Positions 3,773-13,312 of a stretch of 36,297 bases of DNA are shown one piece after another. Below the pieces are notes generated by a model. It ran no database searches, had not been told where the DNA came from, and saw nothing but the letters and a program-made list of their open reading frames with translations. Made by a program: the position numbers and the translations under genes. How positions within the stretch are numbered: the first letter of the stretch is position 1; every line of letters begins with the position of its first letter. This stretch comes from Methanococcoides vulcani (lineage in GTDB: Archaea > Halobacteriota > Methanosarcinia > Methanosarcinales > Methanosarcinaceae). The stretch lies in the NCBI RefSeq assembly GCF_900111645.1, contig NZ_FOHQ01000009.1:1-36297 (forward strand), given 5' to 3'.

Positions 3773-4672
3773 GTGAGTTCTGAAAAAGACACATTAAGGG
3801 ATTACGTGCCAATGTTCGTAATGGCCGGATTGATACTGGTGGTACAGTCCTTAGCACTTTTCCTGGCATCTCCTATGGAGGACCTGGGAATGAGGGCTGT
3901 GGAAAATCCCGAATCCACAGCAAATTCATTATACTATATCGGATTCATACTTGTATTCACGTTCCTGCTGCTTATGGCCATCAAAAGGAACATGAAATGG
4001 ATCATACAGCTCACAATACTGCTTGCAGTGGCAGCAACCGTCTATTATGGATTTTATCCAATGTTCTTCATTCTCGGATTCAACGAGGCAATGAGCAATG
4101 CAATGGCAATTCCACTAGCAATCGCCCTGACAGCACTGCTCTACAAGTTCCCTGAATGGTATGTCATCGATGTCACAGGCATCATAGTCGGAGCGGCTGC
4201 GAGTTCTATTTTTGGAATATCCTTCGGGATAATCCCCGCCATAGTACTCCTGAGCCTGCTGGCAATATATGATGCCATTTCCGTCTACAAGACAAAACAC
4301 ATGATCGATCTTGCAGAAGGAGTTATGGACCTGAAACTGCCGATCCTGTTCGTCATCCCTAAGAAATTGAACTATTCTTTCATAAAAGATAGCCTTAAAG
4401 CAGAAGGAGAAAGGGATGCATTCTTCATGGGCCTTGGGGATGCAGTTATGCCCACAGTTCTTGTTGTATCAGCAAATGTTTTCATCGAGCACACCGGATT
4501 GATCTCACAGCCTGCTCTTGGAGCAATGATAGGAACAATTGTTGGGTTCTTTGCACTGACCACCTTCGTCATGAAAGGAAAGCCGCAGGCAGGACTACCA
4601 TTCTTAAATGGCGGAGTGATCCTTGGATACATTGCAGGCGCTCTGCTCTCAGGAACACCGATCCTGGGATAA
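3773..4672 (+). CDS. Presenilin/signal-peptide-peptidase-like aspartyl protease (A22 family)
   Basis: An intramembrane aspartyl protease of the archaeal PSH family, predicted to cut membrane-spanning substrates. The 299-residue protein has about nine hydrophobic segments. The two catalytic aspartates are visible: D167 in the YD motif of a helix (LLAIYDAISVYKTKHM) and D223 in GLGD (220-223), with spacing close to that of the structurally known Methanoculleus homologue. The C-terminal PAL position reads A-G-L-P (273-276), a conservative variant of the substrate-binding PAL motif. Translation starts at GTG 3773, after a GGAG ten bases upstream; no ATG fits the N-terminus better. The gene is single and ends before a hairpin terminator. 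Confidence 0.88.
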   Translation: MSSEKDTLRDYVPMFVMAGLILVVQSLALFLASPMEDLGMRAVENPESTANSLYYIGFILVFTFLLLMAIKRNMKWIIQLTILLAVAATVYYGFYPMFFILGFNEAMSNAMAIPLAIALTALLYKFPEWYVIDVTGIIVGAAASSIFGISFGIIPAIVLLSLLAIYDAISVYKTKHMIDLAEGVMDLKLPILFVIPKKLNYSFIKDSLKAEGERDAFFMGLGDAVMPTVLVVSANVFIEHTGLISQPALGAMIGTIVGFFALTTFVMKGKPQAGLPFLNGGVILGYIAGALLSGTPILG

Positions 4673-4710: not shown

Positions 4711-4741
4711 AGTGATGTCAACTGTCAAAGTAGACATCACT
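4711..4741. terminator. Bidirectional hairpin between convergent genes
   Basis: Perfect 9-bp arms AGTGATGTC (4711-4719) and GACATCACT (4733-4741) enclose a 13-base loop. It sits in the 112-base gap between the protease gene and the convergent AhpD-like gene, so it can end transcripts from both sides. Confidence 0.6.
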
Positions 4742-4784: not shown

Positions 4785-5267
4785 TTAATCTTCATTGTTG
4801 ACCTTACAGCCATTGCCGTTATTACCAGGACCGATGTTACAGACATCACAATCCTCATCGCATTCAGGCTTTGAACCATTGAACTCAAGATCGAGAGCCC
4901 TAGTACCTTCTGCGAGAACAGAGGCGTTTGACATTGCACCACCGATCAGGACAGCATCGAATATCTCTTCTTTTGTAAGACCGAGCCGGTGTGCCACACG
5001 GATATGCATCTTCATGCAGTGATCACAGCGAATAGCCGAAGAGACACCGATACATATCAGTTCTATGGTCCTGGGATCAAGTCTTTCGAATTCCCTCATG
5101 ATGGAATTGTCATACATCACTTTTGGTATCAGAAGGTCAGGCATATCCTTCATGAAGTTCAGGATATATGGGACCTCACCATATCGTTCCCTGACACCTT
5201 CCAGCATCTCTGAAACCGCCTCATCAGGCTCCTTTTCCACGATCTCTCTGATCTTTTCGATCTCCAT
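4785..5267 (-). CDS. Carboxymuconolactone decarboxylase/AhpD-like protein with Cys-rich tail
   Basis: AhpD-like alpha-helical protein. The redox motif CDHCMKMH (CxxC followed by the proton-relay His) sits in the middle of the chain, in the setting IGVSSAIRCDHC that is typical of AhpD-fold thiol reductases and peroxidases. After the fold ends, a short tail adds four or more cysteines (CDEDCDVC, then another C near the end), which could bind a metal or an Fe-S centre; I do not know this tail from characterised AhpD proteins. ATG 5267 is chosen because GAGGG lies five bases upstream; a GTG at 5279 is an alternative. The gene begins 27 bases after mmp7 on the same strand, so it is probably the last gene of the MCR-activation operon, which suggests a redox role there (inference). 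Confidence 0.82.
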   Translation of the reverse strand: MEIEKIREIVEKEPDEAVSEMLEGVRERYGEVPYILNFMKDMPDLLIPKVMYDNSIMREFERLDPRTIELICIGVSSAIRCDHCMKMHIRVAHRLGLTKEEIFDAVLIGGAMSNASVLAEGTRALDLEFNGSKPECDEDCDVCNIGPGNNGNGCKVNNED

Positions 5268-5294
5268 AATGACCCTCACTAATGTACAATATTA

Positions 5295-6230
5295 TTAAAT
5301 TGTTGATCCTACCTCAGATCTGCGTTTGATCTTTATAAGGACATAGTCTTTCATCTTTGAAGAGGTAATGTTCGCAATATCCGAGAGCTTGAAACCTTCA
5401 TCGAACTCAATATTGCCAATAGCTTCGTGATATTCTTCAAAAGGCAACTTGATCCTCATGCCATCGAGTTGAAGTGTAATTGGTGCAGGAGTCAGAACAT
5501 CATGGATATCAGGAACTTGCTCCTGTACTTCTTTCATCAGCCTTGCAGGAAGGACAACCAGCGGATCTTTTGATATTATCTCCCTCTTGAGGTTTATGAT
5601 CTCACCGACCTTTTCACTAAGCACGTCCATTGCATCAAGTTCAGGACCTTTTCTCATCCTGTGGGCAACCCTGCCAATGCCTCCCACATACATGTCAGCC
5701 CCGGGAACATCCTCCGTCTTAAGGTCCGGTCCACCGGAAACCACTATGGGAATGTCGATCCCTTCAAAGAGTTTTGGCTTCTTGTTGATTATACAATCCT
5801 TGAAAGTACCGAAAGAGAACACAGCAACATCATGCTCATTGATAAGTCTCCTTTCATAATCTGCAGAAAGTGCTACTCTTCTCCCCATTCCCCTTGCAAG
5901 ACCTATCATGTTGGTGTTCGCACCTCCACGACGCAGGTACTCCGCAACATCACATGCTGAATGTGGAAGATGATGTGAAGCAAGTGTCGGGGACACCACT
6001 GCGATCTCAGTACCTGTCAGAGGGGCAGAAGTAAGTGTACCCAGCAATTTCTTGCAAAGCTCCTCCACAAGAGGGACATCCTTTTTCGGGATAAGCATGA
6101 CCAGGGTCACTTCTGTGGAAGCAGGCGTCTTTTGCACAAGATAACCACCAAGGTCTTCCAGAAGTTCAAGGATAAGGCTGTGTTTGTGGATACCGCCTTC
6201 ATAGATATATGGTTCAAGCACTGCTGCCAT
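5295..6230 (-). CDS. mmp7: Methanogenesis marker protein 7
   Basis: A methanogen-specific protein of about 300 residues (TIGR03274-type). Established work in Methanococcus maripaludis places Mmp7 together with McrC, Mmp17, Mmp3 and component A2 in the ATP-driven complex that reduces the nickel of coenzyme F430 and so activates methyl-coenzyme M reductase; that complex holds nitrogenase-type L-clusters. Recognisable parts are VLEPYIYEGGIHKH at the start, SPTLASHHLPHSACDVAEYLRRGGA and IPIVVSGGPDLKTEDVPGADMYVGGIGRVAHRM. The start is placed at ATG 6230, because GGAGATGAT lies upstream at the proper distance; ATGs at 6239 and 6236 sit on the ribosome site itself. It overlaps the end of mmp17 and is translationally coupled to it. 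Confidence 0.93.
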   Translation of the reverse strand: MAAVLEPYIYEGGIHKHSLILELLEDLGGYLVQKTPASTEVTLVMLIPKKDVPLVEELCKKLLGTLTSAPLTGTEIAVVSPTLASHHLPHSACDVAEYLRRGGANTNMIGLARGMGRRVALSADYERRLINEHDVAVFSFGTFKDCIINKKPKLFEGIDIPIVVSGGPDLKTEDVPGADMYVGGIGRVAHRMRKGPELDAMDVLSEKVGEIINLKREIISKDPLVVLPARLMKEVQEQVPDIHDVLTPAPITLQLDGMRIKLPFEEYHEAIGNIEFDEGFKLSDIANITSSKMKDYVLIKIKRRSEVGSTI

Positions 6231-6825
6231 TAACATCATCTCCTGTCAACTCTTCAAGCATTACGCGAGCCTCGTCTATCCATTCCTGTTGCATTGTATC
6301 CTCTGATGCCACAAATATGAACCTGCCATTATCAAGAGAGTGATAACGTATCCTGAAACCCTCTGGAGTGGAACGTATTGCCATATCCGCAAGTCTTTCA
6401 CGAAGAGACTTTTCCGGATCATCCACAATGATATCACCGATGGAATCTTCGGCTGCCTTCAGATCATCAGAAATAACCTCGATCAGATTCCTCTGGGGCT
6501 GTATTACATTCGCTCTTCCAAATTGTGCCCATAGTTTTTCGAGGAATTGAGGGATCGTCTTCTCATCCGTTACAGTGATGAGAACTTTTGATCCGGGTCT
6601 GTCGATCTCAGTCTCAGAGATCTCCTTCGCCTTTACAGGAGGAAGACCTCTACGAAGGATGATCGCCATCATGAACAATGAATCCTCAGGCCTTATCCTC
6701 ACTTTGATCCTACCAATGGTCCTCACAAACGCAAGCTCCGAGATAACATCCTTCATGATGCTTTCGTATGCTTTAGCCTCAGAAGGCTCGGCGGTCTCTA
6801 CAATGAATATCTCAAGGGGTTCCAT
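6214..6825 (-). CDS. mmp17: Methanogenesis marker protein 17
   Basis: A methanogen-specific protein (TIGR03291-type), part of the McrC-Mmp7-Mmp17-Mmp3-A2 activation complex known from M. maripaludis. The 203 residues include MEPLEIFIVETAEPSEAKAYE at the start, an internal IGRIKVRIRPEDSLFMMAIILRR and a C-terminal FIFVASEDTMQQEW stretch; no cysteine is apparent. ATG 6825 is preferred over the GTG at 6834: an excellent ribosome site, GGGGTGATC, lies just upstream of the ATG and overlaps the mmp15 stop. It is coupled to mmp15 upstream and to mmp7 downstream. Confidence 0.92.
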   Translation of the reverse strand: MEPLEIFIVETAEPSEAKAYESIMKDVISELAFVRTIGRIKVRIRPEDSLFMMAIILRRGLPPVKAKEISETEIDRPGSKVLITVTDEKTIPQFLEKLWAQFGRANVIQPQRNLIEVISDDLKAAEDSIGDIIVDDPEKSLRERLADMAIRSTPEGFRIRYHSLDNGRFIFVASEDTMQQEWIDEARVMLEELTGDDVNGSSA

Positions 6826-6830
6826 GAAGA

Positions 6831-8072
6831 TCACCCCTTTACATAACCGGATGCCAGAAGTGCTGCACCTACAGCACCAATAAGCTGTGAATGCGGAGGC
6901 ACGAGGACATCGATCTTCAAAAGATCACCAAGAGCTTTGGGAACACCTGCAATAAGGGAAGAACCACCCACAAGGATGAGGGGTTCCTTTACTTCAACTT
7001 CCTGAAGCTGCTGCTCAAATATCTGCTCGACCACACTATGGCAGGCTGCAGCAGCGACATCCTCGGGAATTGATCCTTTGGCAAGGGAATTAACAAGGGA
7101 CTGGATACCGAAAACGATACAGTAACTGTTCATTTCCACATTCTTTTGCATACCCCTGACAGCAAGGTCACCAAGTTCTGTGATCTCAACACCAAGACGC
7201 TTAGAGGTCATCTCAAGGAAGCGACCGGAAGCACCGGCACAGATACCACCCATTGTGAACATGCCGGGAATACCGTCCTGTACAGATATGGCCTTGTTGT
7301 CCATTCCACCAATATCGATAACTGTTGCACTGCCCTGTTGCCTGTCTGCAAGGTAGACAGCACCTTTTGAGTTTACGGTGATCTCCTCCTGCACAAGATC
7401 GGCATTGAAATGCTCACCCAATAGGAAACGACCGTATCCGGTAGTACCTATTGCCTGAATATCCTCTTTCTTCAACCCTGCCTGATCCAATGCCTGCTGT
7501 AAAGCAGTATCCGCACTTTCGAGAACCTTGATGGTCGGGACCCAGCCCTCACCGATGATCTCATCGTCCTTCATAACAACTGCCTTAGTTGTAGTTGAAC
7601 CGGAGTCAACACCAGCAGTTATGCCGACCTGATGTTCCCTTGCAAGGAGGTGCTTCCTTCTTGCAATAGTAGTAAGTGCTTCCAGACGGGTCAGGAGAGT
7701 AGCTGCCGTAGTACGTTCCGTAAATGAATAACTGATAACAGGGAGGCCTGAACTCTGGAAGATATACCTGCGGATCTCATTCCTGACAATAGCAGCTTCT
7801 GCACAGCGGAAACATGATGTCACGAACACACCATCGACTTTGGCAACGCCTTCAACTACTGCCTTTGCCCTTGCCATCATAAGCTTCAGGTCAGGACTTG
7901 CGACTTCCAGCCCGAATTCCATCCCTATCGTATCAAGTGATGCAACATCCATCTCAGGGTAGACCAGCTTTGCATTCAAGGTGCTTGCAGCACTTTCCAG
8001 CTCTTTCTGGACACCTGCATACTCGCTCCCACAGGAAACAAGTGCTATCAATACCTTATCTTTTTCACTCAT
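6831..8072 (-). CDS. mmp15: Methanogenesis marker protein 15, BcrAD/HgdC-type ASKHA ATPase
   Basis: A methanogen-conserved ATPase related to the activators of benzoyl-CoA reductase and 2-hydroxyacyl-CoA dehydratase, enzymes that push electrons to low potential with ATP. Visible parts: an N-terminal methanogen-specific domain with CxxC at C87/C90, then an ASKHA core with phosphate-1 motif [10 protein letters not shown] (154-163), phosphate-2 IDIGGMDNK (252-260), the activator-type [10 protein letters not shown] with C278, which in the relatives ligates a dimer-bridging 4Fe-4S cluster, and the adenosine motif VGGSS (368-372). A second activator-type cysteine is C318 in NSYCIVF. Its start codon overlaps the mmp5 stop (ATGA), with GGGGGTGAT upstream. 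A role in cluster reduction or assembly for MCR activation is inferred from family and operon. Confidence 0.93.
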
Positions 8073-8524
8073 TCATCATCACCCCCGGATGGAAGGGCTT
8101 TCAGAAACTCTGCTATATTATACACGAAAGCCTTCCCTTCCTCTTCCGTGTGAGGATATTGTATTTCAAGAACAGGAATGTCCTTCTCCCTTATGAGAAA
8201 CTTTGTAAGCTCATTTGTACGAGCGCAACCCATGCAGCCAAAGCTTATGGATGCATCACCGACAATGATACCAGCTTCCGCGACATCGATAAGCGGACCA
8301 ATGATGGACATCCTGCCTCTGACACCTGCCGGAACTTCTACCGCTGCATATTTCAGACCATGCTTTGGTCCCTCAGGAGTTATGTTCAAAGGAGGGGAAT
8401 CCACACCTATTGTAGTGATCTTCTCGCGTATCTTTTCCATCATAGCAAGAGGCTCATGCCCGAATCTCTCGACCATGTCGGAAAGGATAAGGCTGTTTGT
8501 TGGATAAATGATAACTTTTGCCAA
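8069..8524 (-). CDS. mmp5: Methanogenesis marker protein 5
   Basis: A methanogen-specific small protein (TIGR03271-type) of 151 residues, biochemical role unknown. The fold looks Rossmann-like ([23 protein letters not shown]), with a central C97-x2-C100 (CMGC) followed by [11 protein letters not shown]. The translation start is TTG 8524: it follows GAGGTG at five bases and no ATG is available in frame. The stop overlaps the mmp15 start by four bases. The cysteine pair next to a BcrAD-type ATPase gene suggests a redox or cluster-carrying partner (inference). Confidence 0.9.
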
Positions 8525-8533
8525 AATAACACC

Positions 8534-8971
8534 TCATAATTCTGAATCAATGATCTTCTTCAACTTCGATACATCCAGTTTTTGGGGAGCTTCCTTTTCT
8601 TCAAGCGGCTCACCGGCATCATACTCATCCAGTGCCCTGCCTATCATTGGAAGCATGCTCACCTCTTCCCTCAGGAAATGGAAACCAGGTCTTGGACCAC
8701 CGCCTCTTCCTGCACGACATCTTACTTCCGCACCAGGCTTAAAGCCCCTGTCCTTAACAAATATATGGTTACGGTCCATGGAGCGGAGAGTTTCCACAAC
8801 CCTGTTAACAGCATCTCTGGGACCATTCACCATTGTTCCGAAACAGGTCTCTTTGATGGTAATGGCGTCCTCGGACTCATACACCCTCATAGCAGCATCC
8901 ATTGGCAGGACGCTGTCAGAACTTATCACAACGATCTTGGTAATGTTATCCTCAGTATCTTCACCCATCAT
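8534..8971 (-). CDS. mmp6: Methanogenesis marker protein 6
   Basis: A methanogen-specific protein (TIGR03272-type), 145 residues, function unknown. It contains TKIVVISSDSVLPMDAAMRVYES near the start, then ETCFGTMVNGP and an unusual basic glycine-rich turn VRCRAGRGGGPRPGFH. Two cysteines (C43, C85) are in these motifs. The start at ATG 8971 overlaps the mmp3 stop by four bases and is preceded by GGAAGTGATC, which also encodes the end of Mmp3, so the pair is translationally coupled. Only nine bases separate it from the mmp5 start. Confidence 0.9.
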   Translation of the reverse strand: MMGEDTEDNITKIVVISSDSVLPMDAAMRVYESEDAITIKETCFGTMVNGPRDAVNRVVETLRSMDRNHIFVKDRGFKPGAEVRCRAGRGGGPRPGFHFLREEVSMLPMIGRALDEYDAGEPLEEKEAPQKLDVSKLKKIIDSEL

Positions 8972-10533
8972 TGATCACTTCCTGTATCTTCAATAACGTA
9001 CATTACATCCCCGTCCTTCATGCCCTTAAGTTTTTCAGGCTCAAGAATGCGGCCTATGATATTCGTACTTGTGAACTTCTCACCCGTGGGACCGAACATG
9101 TCGTCGTCCTCAAGCTTCACACCGACCATACCATGTCTTTTTGCTGCCTGGTTAGTAACGCCAAGCTCACCAGCTACAACCTTACCCTGAGGAACGTTCT
9201 CAGGAAGGATCTCCTTGTATTTTTCAGCGGCTTTCTCTGCCTTGAAGATGTAAGTATTCTCATACGTCATCATAATGGGCAGTGCACCAACCGGTTTGAA
9301 CTGAAGATCGATGGCATGCCTGAAGAAATCAAGCGTCTTGGGAGCAAGTTCATCATAAAGTTTAACGCTCACAAGCTTTGAATCCGGAACACCTACAGCT
9401 TCTACCTTTCCTTCCTTCAAAACATCAATACTATGTGCAGGTTTCTGCTCAACGATAACAGCATCATCTTCAGTATAACCTTGCTTTACAAGCTCAATGC
9501 CAAGAGCTGAAAGCTTCTCTTCTGCTTCCTTAAAGGACAGGCCTAAGAGCCAGATCGGTTCAGGAGATGTCTTCACCATTAGCTTCTGGTCGGCCTCTGC
9601 CATCTGGACAAGCTCTATTCCATGAGAAAGATGTCCTACAACCGAATGCATGATACTTGCAGGCCTGTCATCCTTAGCTATGAACACCTTTCCAGTCCCG
9701 TAACCTACAGTTCGGACCCATACCGAACCTCTTGTCCGCGGGTCAAAATTCTCAAATTTGCACATCTCGCCATGCAATGAATGATCAGAAATAAAAGAAC
9801 TTGAAACAAATTCCACATCAAAGGTACCATCGCGTGTCAACGCAAAGAAATGTTCTGCACCTTCGGGTGCTTCGGGATGGATCTCGACCTCTATGTAGGT
9901 GAAGATCCTGGAACCATCCTCGATGACCGTATTCAGGTCAGTGGTACATATGTGCTCCCCGGTCTCCACCCATTCCAGTACCGGCTCAATGTTAATTATG
10001 CTGTCACCACTGCCAAGCTCGGACAGGATGTTTATCCCACTTACGACCTTTCCAAAAATACCATCTTCCGGAGTACCATATTCCGAAGAATGGTCCTCCA
10101 GTGCAATTATCATGTGAGTGTTATCCGGATCAAGACCACCGGCTCCGAACACCACATCATATTTGTTTAGTGATAATAAAGAATGAGTTGGTACAATGTC
10201 AGCTTTGAAGGGACCAAATGCCACTGCATCCCTGGAATCCCATCGAACCTTTGTACCCTCATATTCGTTGAAATTATCCGCCCATACATCAGCAGATGAT
10301 GAATCGCCTTCCAGTTCTATCCTGAAGTCCCCTTTCGAGGTCTTCACAACATAATCTATTATAGCACCGCTTTTGCGACCTTCGTCCTTCTTAAGGATAC
10401 CTATAGCGGTACCTTCCCTGTAAGGAGCTTCCGATACTTTAATAGCATCCCCCAGAGTAGAACCCGGGGGCAATGCTACCCGATTATCATTGACCTCAAC
10501 ACTAATCTCGCCGCTCAGGAATACCGCCTCCAC
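8968..10533 (-). CDS. mmp3: Methanogenesis marker protein 3 (cyclophilin-like)
   Basis: A methanogen-specific protein of 521 residues (TIGR03268-type), a known member of the MCR activation complex. The N-terminal 50 residues look like a ubiquitin/ThiS beta-grasp domain (SVEVNDNRVALPPGSTLGDAI). A central part (about 150-190: EDGIFGKVVSGINILSELGSGD) resembles cyclophilin-type peptidyl-prolyl isomerases, and a similar stretch recurs near the C-terminus (PTGEKFTSTNIIGRI). The start is the GTG at 10533; TAA lies just upstream in frame and no better ATG exists, though the GGAGG seen here falls inside the first codons. It follows atwA by 29 bases. Confidence 0.92.
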   Translation of the reverse strand: MEAVFLSGEISVEVNDNRVALPPGSTLGDAIKVSEAPYREGTAIGILKKDEGRKSGAIIDYVVKTSKGDFRIELEGDSSSADVWADNFNEYEGTKVRWDSRDAVAFGPFKADIVPTHSLLSLNKYDVVFGAGGLDPDNTHMIIALEDHSSEYGTPEDGIFGKVVSGINILSELGSGDSIINIEPVLEWVETGEHICTTDLNTVIEDGSRIFTYIEVEIHPEAPEGAEHFFALTRDGTFDVEFVSSSFISDHSLHGEMCKFENFDPRTRGSVWVRTVGYGTGKVFIAKDDRPASIMHSVVGHLSHGIELVQMAEADQKLMVKTSPEPIWLLGLSFKEAEEKLSALGIELVKQGYTEDDAVIVEQKPAHSIDVLKEGKVEAVGVPDSKLVSVKLYDELAPKTLDFFRHAIDLQFKPVGALPIMMTYENTYIFKAEKAAEKYKEILPENVPQGKVVAGELGVTNQAAKRHGMVGVKLEDDDMFGPTGEKFTSTNIIGRILEPEKLKGMKDGDVMYVIEDTGSDQ

Positions 10534-10562: not shown

Positions 10563-12179
10563 TTATGCTTCCTGAGCAACAGATACACGCTCTTCCTCTG
10601 TAAGCTGGGAAAGAACGTCATTGGGCTCACCAACAGCTATTATCTTAGCATCCCTCATTAGTGCAACGCGATCACATACCTCCTGCAGGAAATCCATATC
10701 GTGTGACACAATAACGAATGTGTCACCCATCTCATCACGTGCCTTAAGAATGGACTTTGTAACCTCGATCTTAGTTATCGGATCCATCGTACCTGTAGGT
10801 TCGTCCATCACAATAATGGTCGGCTCTTTCATAAGGATCTGTGCAAGAGCAACCCTGTGACTCTCACCCTCACTTATATCATCGGCCATCTTTGGCAGGA
10901 TCGATTTTGCCTTCTCTTCAGAGAAACCGGTAGCAATAAGTGTCTTTATTGCCTTGCGCACTGCAAGCTCGTACGGGAGGTCGATACCAATAGACTCTGT
11001 CAGGTTATCAATAATGCTCCTGTGAGTGTAAAGTCCGTATTCCTGATGAAGGATACCCATGTATTTGGTAGCACGACCCCTGTTGTCGGGGCCCGGAATG
11101 GTCATGTCAACCCATTCATCGCCCACACGCACGTGAATATCGCCTTTTGTAGGTTGCACGATACCCATGAGGATCTCAGAGGTGGTTGTCTTTCCCGCAC
11201 CACTGGTACCTGCAAGACCGAAGATCTCCCCTTCCTTTACATCAAAAGAGATGTCATTGACAGCATGTACGACACCCCTGGTAACAGAGATGTATTTTTT
11301 AACAAGGTTCTTGACATCGATAATAGGTTCACCAAGAACGACATTCTCGTTCTTTTCAATGTGTGAGACCATCTTCATGAACTCAGTGGAAACATCATGA
11401 GGATCACCCTCCATGACGACCACGCCATCTTCGAGGATGATGGCCTTATCTGCAAGCTCCTCGATAACCTCCGACCAGTGGGATGTAATGACCAGGGTCA
11501 TGTCGTAAGCTTTAACAGCCCTTTCAATGACATCGTGAACAACATCTGCAGTCCTTGGGTCAAGGGTACCTGTAGGTTCATCAGCAAGAAGCAGCATGGG
11601 GTTTCTTACAAGTTGTCTTGCAAGCACTACCCTCTGTTTCTCCCCACCACTCAGGTCACGTGCAACATGCATCATACGATGGGACAATCGTACATCCTCA
11701 AGAAGCTCCATTGCCCTTGACATAGCATCATTACCACTGTAACCGATCTCGGTAAGAGAGTTCATGACGTTTGCAACGACCTGGTCATCACCATACAGTG
11801 CAAACGTACGCTGGAGCATGATAGCGATCCTTTTAGAAACGTTTCTACGTTCATGAGCATGAAGGGACAATGCAACAAAGTCCGCATCGAATGATTTCAT
11901 CACGCCATCCTTACAATGACGGCATTGCTCCCCGACCTTACTGGGAGGATCGATATGATCACATTTATCACATCGTGCCAGATGATAGATGATCGAACCG
12001 GAGATATTCTCATATTCCTCGGCTCCCCTCAAAGCGTGCATCAGGATAGTCTTTCCTGCACCACTTCGACCTAGAATTCCAATGACTTCACCTTCATTGA
12101 TGTTAAGATTGATGTTTTTCAGAACATTAACACCATCATAAGATATAGTAAGGTCTTTGACCTCAATGAACAATGACAT
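10563..12179 (-). CDS. atwA: MCR activation component A2, twin ABC ATPase
   Basis: ATPase that powers reductive activation of methyl-coenzyme M reductase. Two ABC domains occur in one chain of 538 residues. Domain 1 has Walker A GRSGAGKT (37-44), a four-cysteine zinc-ribbon insertion (C70, C73, C86, C89), signature LSGGE (176-180) and Walker B ending ADEPTG. Domain 2 has Walker A GTSGAGKT (324-331), a divergent signature ISEGE (435-439) and Walker B VMDEPTG. No membrane segment is present, consistent with a soluble ATPase. ATG 12179 follows GGAGGAAAGCAA, the best ribosome site of the operon. It is the first gene of the leftward operon atwA-mmp3-mmp6-mmp5-mmp15-mmp17-mmp7. Confidence 0.97.
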
Positions 12180-12450: not shown

Positions 12451-13269
12451 TTACAGAGAATCAACTATATCCAGAACTTCCCCGATATCCCTGATCACCA
12501 TATCTGCAGATCTCTCCAGTTTTTCAGGGCGTTCATCCCCCTGTTGAAGGGTTACAACGCCAATATCCGCAGCCCTTAAAGCAAGAATATCATTAAGGCC
12601 ATCACCAACCATCATAACACTGTCATATTTCTCTTTCAGGTCAAGGATGATACGTGCCTTTTCGCGGGTAGTGGCAATATCGTAAACTCGCCCCATAGGT
12701 ATATCGATGCATTCCGCAAGCTGCCTGAGATTTCGTCGGCTGTCACCTGATGCAATATAGACATCCACCCCTCGTGATTTCAATTGACCGACAGTATCCT
12801 TAGTATCATGGAACATGCGACCTCCTGTACTTAGCACATATGGAACAGAGTGATCATTGCTGTCAACGATTATGCCTGCTGCCACATAGAATATTTTAGG
12901 GCAATGGACCTTCACCACATCGACCACCTGAAGGATATCCCCTACCTTAATATCACTATCCTTGATTATATCATAAGCTTCGTCCAAAGAAAAAGGAATA
13001 CTTGCACAACTGATATCAATAGCTATCCCATGATCATCAATAAAATCAATAACGCGCATGTTGCGGTCAACACCAAGGATCACAGCCGGCTCCGTATGAA
13101 GCACTATCAGTGCACGACCTTTGCGCTGTGCTACCAGGTCAGTGCTTTCCACACCCGTAAGAATGTTCCCACTACCGATATCCTTTGCCACACGATACAT
13201 GTGTAACAGAGTACCTGCACTATCAAAAACCACAGCTATGCTTTTTTGCATGTGAGTATGATTCGACAT
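12451..13269 (-). CDS. Soluble HAD-family phosphatase, P-type-ATPase-domain-like (MJ0968 type)
   Basis: A HAD-superfamily protein of 272 residues without membrane helices. Motif I is FDSAGTLL: the nucleophile Asp is present, and Ala sits where soluble HAD phosphatases have a second Asp, as in P-type ATPases (DKTGT). Motif II is IASGD, and the metal loop GDGLNDILAL matches the ATPase-type GDGxND. This layout resembles the soluble archaeal P-type-ATPase-like phosphatase MJ0968. Its substrate is unknown. ATG 13269 is preferred to the upstream TTG at 13275. It lies 43 bases after the nuclease gene on the same strand, so the two may share a transcript. Confidence 0.8.
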   Translation of the reverse strand: MSNHTHMQKSIAVVFDSAGTLLHMYRVAKDIGSGNILTGVESTDLVAQRKGRALIVLHTEPAVILGVDRNMRVIDFIDDHGIAIDISCASIPFSLDEAYDIIKDSDIKVGDILQVVDVVKVHCPKIFYVAAGIIVDSNDHSVPYVLSTGGRMFHDTKDTVGQLKSRGVDVYIASGDSRRNLRQLAECIDIPMGRVYDIATTREKARIILDLKEKYDSVMMVGDGLNDILALRAADIGVVTLQQGDERPEKLERSADMVIRDIGEVLDIVDSL

Positions 13270-13312
13270 AACCAATTATTAATCTTATGTTCTAAAAAAG
13301 AAAAATGACTTT

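Follow-up and report, generated by a model that had tools for sequence, protein, structure and literature searches.

An AhpD-like dithiol protein gene closing the MCR-activation cluster in Methanococcoides and its relatives

The window considered here, a stretch of 36,297 nucleotides of Methanococcoides vulcani DNA, carries on its minus strand a cluster of MCR-activation genes whose last member encodes a small AhpD-like dithiol protein (ahpD). Does this gene belong with its neighbours, and what might its product do for MCR? MCR is the source of nearly all biological methane and, in anaerobic methanotrophs, also its consumer. The route by which its nickel is brought to Ni(I), and the electron donor used by cells, are still open (PMC12176620).

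The gene and its cluster

On the minus strand the cluster runs in the order A2-mmp3-mmp6-mmp5-mmp15-mmp17-mmp7-ahpD. The genes for the MCR-activation ATPase component A2 (atwA, 10563..12179), mmp3 (8968..10533), mmp6 (8534..8971), mmp5 (8069..8524), mmp15 (6831..8072) and mmp17 (6214..6834) all score above the cut-offs of their families (TIGR03269, TIGR03268, TIGR03272, TIGR03271, TIGR03286 and TIGR03291, respectively). The same is true of mmp7 (methanogenesis marker 7, 5295..6239; TIGR03274), a subunit of the activation complex, which also matches 8s7v_H with E=2e-79. The gene ahpD itself (4785..5267) starts with ATG and encodes 160 amino acids. That it is a spurious open reading frame is ruled out by purifying selection within the genus (dN/dS 0.03–0.12) together with the family matches given below.

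An earlier note on this DNA had described the reading frame as following mmp7 by 27 nucleotides on the same strand with no hairpin between, and this is borne out. The gap (5268..5294, minus strand) contains a ribosome-binding-like site, GTGAGG, and its best hairpin is not outstanding (z −0.9). On the 3′ side of ahpD, a hairpin followed by a T-rich stretch lies at 4711..4741 on the minus strand (−15.1 kcal/mol, z −2.45). A hairpin after ahpD and none of note between mmp7 and ahpD fit a transcript that ends with ahpD. From its sequence the hairpin is the probable end of the operon, common to ahpD and the convergent peptidase gene, and the 27-nucleotide gap may also hold an archaeal promoter of ahpD's own.

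Two neighbours of the cluster deserve mention. The convergent gene (3773–4672, plus strand), whose product is a presenilin-type intramembrane protease (PSH), has the inverted repeat at 4711–4741 in common with ahpD; this pairing is kept in several genera of the family and not in distant families. Upstream of A2, on the same strand, lies a HAD-family gene (12451–13275). A 46%-identical relative of its product adjoins the S8e-ahpD-mmp10-mcr stretch in three loci of family f3 (L034–L036), and the HAD-family gene may be another gene tied to MCR activation or maturation.

Active site and tail of the protein

The product scores 53.4 bits against the gathering score of 23 for PF02627 (CMD; E=2.5e-14) and 42.3 bits against 27.8 for the NCBIfam AhpD core, TIGR00778 (E=3.7e-11), which places it in the AhpD superfamily. 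It falls far below the cut-offs for classical alkylhydroperoxidase AhpD (TIGR00777, 19.5 bits against 191.95) and for the 4-carboxymuconolactone decarboxylase equivalog (TIGR02425, 21.1 bits against 155.7), and is thus not classed as a classical AhpD. The AhpD redox site CxxC-x3-H that had been proposed for it is present and complete: the stretch E69-x11-C81-x2-C84-x3-H88 (5004..5063, minus strand) is found in all 70 orthologues sampled across the families carrying ahpD, and in one of 19 other AhpD-like proteins sampled. The AhpD of Mycobacterium tuberculosis has the catalytic pattern Glu-x11-Cys-x2-Cys-x3-His. Both this pattern and an AhpD-type helical core are shared between that enzyme (PDB 1knc/1gu9; PF02627) and the ahpD product, whereas the latter is 160 residues long, bears an additional dithiol tail at its C terminus, has no known lipoyl partner and stands in an MCR gene context; the direct match to 1gu9 is weak (E=0.008) and was obtained with a distant orthologue.

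Besides the active-site pair, the window protein has cysteines at positions 72, 136, 140, 143 and 154. The earlier note had seen an extra C-terminal cysteine cluster, and of this cluster one pair stands: C140-D-V-C143 (4839..4850, minus strand) has a counterpart in 70/70 orthologues with spacing C-x2-5-C, as CxxC in 64 of them, whereas C136 is found in a minority and C154 is not conserved. That all the tail cysteines are important can therefore be dismissed. None of the 19 other AhpD-like proteins has the tail pair, the one apparent case (L209) being a wrongly picked reading frame. The sampled AhpD-like proteins of other genomes differ from the ahpD product in lacking the tail pair and, mostly, the full active site, and MCR linkage was not seen at those of their loci that were examined.

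AlphaFold2 predicts a confident all-helical core, with pLDDT mostly above 90, and a tail that is disordered from about residue 131. Foldseek gives probability 1.00 to 2cwq, 3bey and 2ouw with modest E-values (about 2e-3 to 1e-2), and the closest folds that also have detectable sequence similarity include O27018 of Methanothermobacter (3bey), TTHA0727 (2cwq) and RclX (7y4r). The model thus indicates an AhpD-type all-helical fold and predicts a mobile tail. In a tree of the orthologues and other AhpD-like proteins the subgroups follow families, with long branches, and a single origin is neither supported nor contradicted. Judged by its sequence motifs, the ahpD product is a dithiol oxidoreductase of the AhpD fold whose catalytic site is complete and whose tail bears a second dithiol.

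Such a protein could serve MCR in more than one way. The main alternative to a part in activation is that it acts outside activation proper as an AhpD-type thiol peroxidase or reductase that shields the oxygen-labile Ni(I) and complex Fe-S clusters on which MCR activation depends, either by destroying peroxides or by repairing oxidised thiols. Its complete catalytic motif is that of known peroxidase-system enzymes, and AhpD proteins elsewhere support AhpC or act directly as peroxidases (PMC8945050). The tail dithiol, absent from the other AhpD-like proteins sampled, argues against this protective role, as does the lack of any peroxiredoxin gene noticed beside ahpD; we consider it rather unlikely. 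A second alternative casts the protein as a carrier or maturation factor for metal, Fe-S clusters or F430, its tail CxxC, with or without the core cysteines, binding the cargo and handing it to McrC/Mmp7 or to MCR. A conserved cysteine pair in a flexible acidic tail would suit such a task, and the activation complex requires three unusual nitrogenase-like Fe-S clusters (PMC12176620). A single strictly conserved pair of variable spacing is nevertheless weak for a fixed metal site, and the invariant Glu and His are in keeping with redox catalysis of the AhpD type, so that a carrier function seems improbable.

Linkage to MCR genes and its limits

Among 186 genomes of the order, some match to ahpD occurs in 178 and an orthologue (E<=1e-35) in 164; mmp7 is present in 174. 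Within the family of the window, Methanosarcinaceae (f1), mmp7 is immediately followed by ahpD on its own strand in 95/95 comparable pairs. In family f4 mmp17-mmp7-ahpD is kept in 6/6 loci, preceded by mmp15 and mmp5 as far as the contig reaches. Families f3 and f5, which are probably ANME-2-type, have ahpD and mmp7 on separate contigs in all 34 pairs. With one exception among the 14 loci examined there, ahpD and mmp10 converge, and in nine loci mcrB, mcrD, (mcrC,) mcrG and mcrA follow. A candidate for a third context, in which ahpD neighbours a porphobilinogen synthase gene (G006, L072), was set aside; the neighbours are ordinary housekeeping genes and ahpD is there unlinked to mmp7.

We extended the comparison to 393 genomes of the phylum, where a good match was taken as E<=1e-15 and family-type names are inferred. 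Here ahpD has a good match in 172 genomes and mmp7 is found in 238, including every one of the 172. Nearly every mmp7-bearing genome of the Methanotrichales-, Methanocellales- and Methanomicrobiales-type families has an orthologue. The order A2-mmp3-mmp6-mmp5-mmp15-mmp17-mmp7-ahpD recurs among the phylum loci examined, and the Methanotrichales-type loci keep all of it. The Methanomicrobiales-type families have ahpD directly after mmp7 in 48/55 pairs; in the other seven the two genes again share a strand and are no more than about 4.3 kb apart. For the Methanocellales-type family they are 1.5–2.7 kb apart, with ahpD between mmp10 and mmp7 in two of three loci. Several genomes have mmp7-ahpD gaps of 2–5 nucleotides, suggesting translational coupling. 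No more than a few of the 20 loci compared share the genes beyond ahpD, and ahpD therefore marks the end of the conserved block.

Linkage of ahpD to MCR-activation genes is thus conserved, and the linkage to mmp7 holds in every comparable pair from the family of the window and in most pairs from distant families, but not in f3 and f5, where ahpD sits beside mmp10 and mcr instead. Two of the conditions under which the earlier note would have given up its reading, a lost mmp7 link in relatives and unconserved tail cysteines, were thus checked without refuting it, the second through the C140/C143 pair. Adjacency in divergent families and turnover of the genes beyond ahpD rule out chance neighbourhood. 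Gene order across these genomes shows that ahpD truly belongs, as an accessory of long standing, to the MCR-activation gene cluster of Halobacteriota methanogens and methanotrophs. One could still suppose a general redox gene kept in place by operon inertia and having no MCR-specific role, all the more as ahpD can be lost. This we regard as very improbable, given that adjacency holds even where identity has fallen to about 35%, with the genes beyond turning over, that ahpD is mostly in another MCR locus where the mmp7 link is broken, and that its coding sequence is under the purifying selection noted above.

The contexts beside mmp10, the McrA arginine methyltransferase gene, seen in two families of the order, and the nearby position in the Methanocellales-type loci could instead hint at an enzyme of MCR post-translational modification or MCR assembly. 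Most families nevertheless have ahpD by mmp7 rather than mmp10, AhpD chemistry is thiol redox, and we know of no MCR modification whose distribution matches that of ahpD, all of which leaves this reading with hardly any probability.

The gene is not present wherever the MCR activation machinery is. Not one of the 80 named mmp7 loci examined in Methanobacteriota (from Methanothermococcus, Methanocaldococcus, Methanobrevibacter and other genera) has it, and searches of 18 whole genomes of this group found no orthologue, and at best short, divergent AhpD-like proteins. Families taken to be ANME-1-like or Archaeoglobus-like, and some further families with mmp7, either have no ahpD or have relatives with neither the CxxC nor the tail. 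In the window's own family, the small-genome genera g6 and g7 keep mmp7 and have no ahpD. These absences from mmp7-bearing lineages make ahpD a lineage-specific accessory rather than part of a universal machinery. Such a patchy, lineage-limited distribution would suit a protective rather than an obligatory role and so favours the oxidant-shielding alternative, against which stands the linkage, almost wherever ahpD was seen, to genes of MCR activation or maturation.

Some of these loci are of interest in themselves. Three g6/g7 genomes (G084, G085 and G100; loci L165, L166 and L168) keep mmp15-mmp17-mmp7 without ahpD and are natural knockouts. In family f7 (L172–L174) mmp10 is convergent after mmp7, without any ahpD orthologue, so that this place is organised differently. 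Divergent AhpD relatives in f28, f32, f12 and f10 (L192, L193, L194 and L195) keep one active-site cysteine and the histidine, are without the CxxC and the tail, and were found away from mmp7.

A possible dithiol partner of MCR activation

From its linkage, the ahpD product very probably has a role connected with MCR. Our best explanation, held tentatively and at somewhat under an even chance, is that this AhpD-fold dithiol oxidoreductase serves MCR activation. That it would work there by dithiol relay or disulfide clearance, rather than in an antioxidant or metal role, we put forward with the same reserve. The tail dithiol, C140/C143, would swing between the active-site disulfide and a partner. 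Electrons would be supplied by thiols of the cell (CoM-SH, CoB-SH or a redoxin) and would pass either to the McrC/Mmp7/Mmp17/Mmp3/A2 machinery or to inhibitory CoM-S-S-CoB bound in MCR. Activation to Ni(I) could in this way run on physiological dithiols, much as DTT serves the crude A3a fraction. Dithiols, with potentials near −300 mV, cannot reduce F430 without energy input, and so the protein may act only indirectly.

MCR activation by A2 and A3a has been achieved with DTT (PMC9081873), whereas the pure activation complex of M. maripaludis requires Ti(III) citrate and DTT is ineffective, a failure that its authors read as pointing to missing auxiliary proteins; the complex has CoM-S-S-CoB bound, in an inhibited state (PMC12176620). 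The gap left by this DTT-inactive complex is one that a dithiol protein tied to the activation genes would fit. It is conceivable, if rather doubtful, that the ahpD product is the long-sought auxiliary factor through which MCR activation in the methanogens and methanotrophs of Halobacteriota is driven by physiological dithiols or thiol-redoxins, either with electrons fed along the McrC/Mmp7 cluster path or through removal of the heterodisulfide blocking the active site. It cannot be the A3a factor itself, since A3a was characterised in a species of Methanobacteriota, a group apparently without ahpD; it would be the Halobacteriota branch's own solution.

The M. maripaludis complex, McrC-Mmp7-Mmp17-Mmp3-A2-DUF2098 (8s7v, 8s7x, 9h1l), has homologues of its Mmp7, Mmp17, Mmp3 and A2 encoded in the ahpD cluster. 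No AhpD-like subunit was reported for it, and the Methanobacteriota sampled yielded no orthologue. That this complex is active, if weakly, with no AhpD-like protein counts against a part for the ahpD product in activation. Protein disulfide reduction that depends on thiols, as proposed here, has a parallel in methanoredoxin of Methanosarcina, a CoM-dependent protein disulfide reductase (cited in PMC12713407); methanoredoxin is glutaredoxin-like and differs in fold from the ahpD product.

In the literature on the activation complex, reviews of MCR and the marker lists of 2007, 2011 and 2022, mostly outside subscription journals, we found no AhpD or carboxymuconolactone decarboxylase brought into connection with MCR activation. 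The phylogenetic-profile list of 2011 includes the genes from A2 to mmp7 and not AhpD, as expected for a gene that is not in all methanogens. The fold family is thus already known, and the MCR association, the tail and the distribution are not described in the literature found. The 2025 structure paper allows that further factors may be needed, its complex having been unable to use DTT (PMC12176620). Methanococcus, being without ahpD, would not reveal such a partner. With Methanosarcina tractable, ahpD offers a concrete and genetically accessible candidate for a redox partner or guardian, and heterologous production of MCR from the Halobacteriota branch may also need it.

Purification of the M. 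maripaludis activation complex also brought down a protein of the DUF2098 family (PMC12176620), and DUF2098-family genes occur by mcr and mmp10 near ahpD in one family, f5. In four f5 loci such a gene lies in the mmp10-mcr stretch between mmp10 and mcrB (L048, 4412–4720; L049, 4404–4712; L050, 7955–8266; L052, 8843–9151), family membership having been tested for one of them and assigned to the others by similarity.
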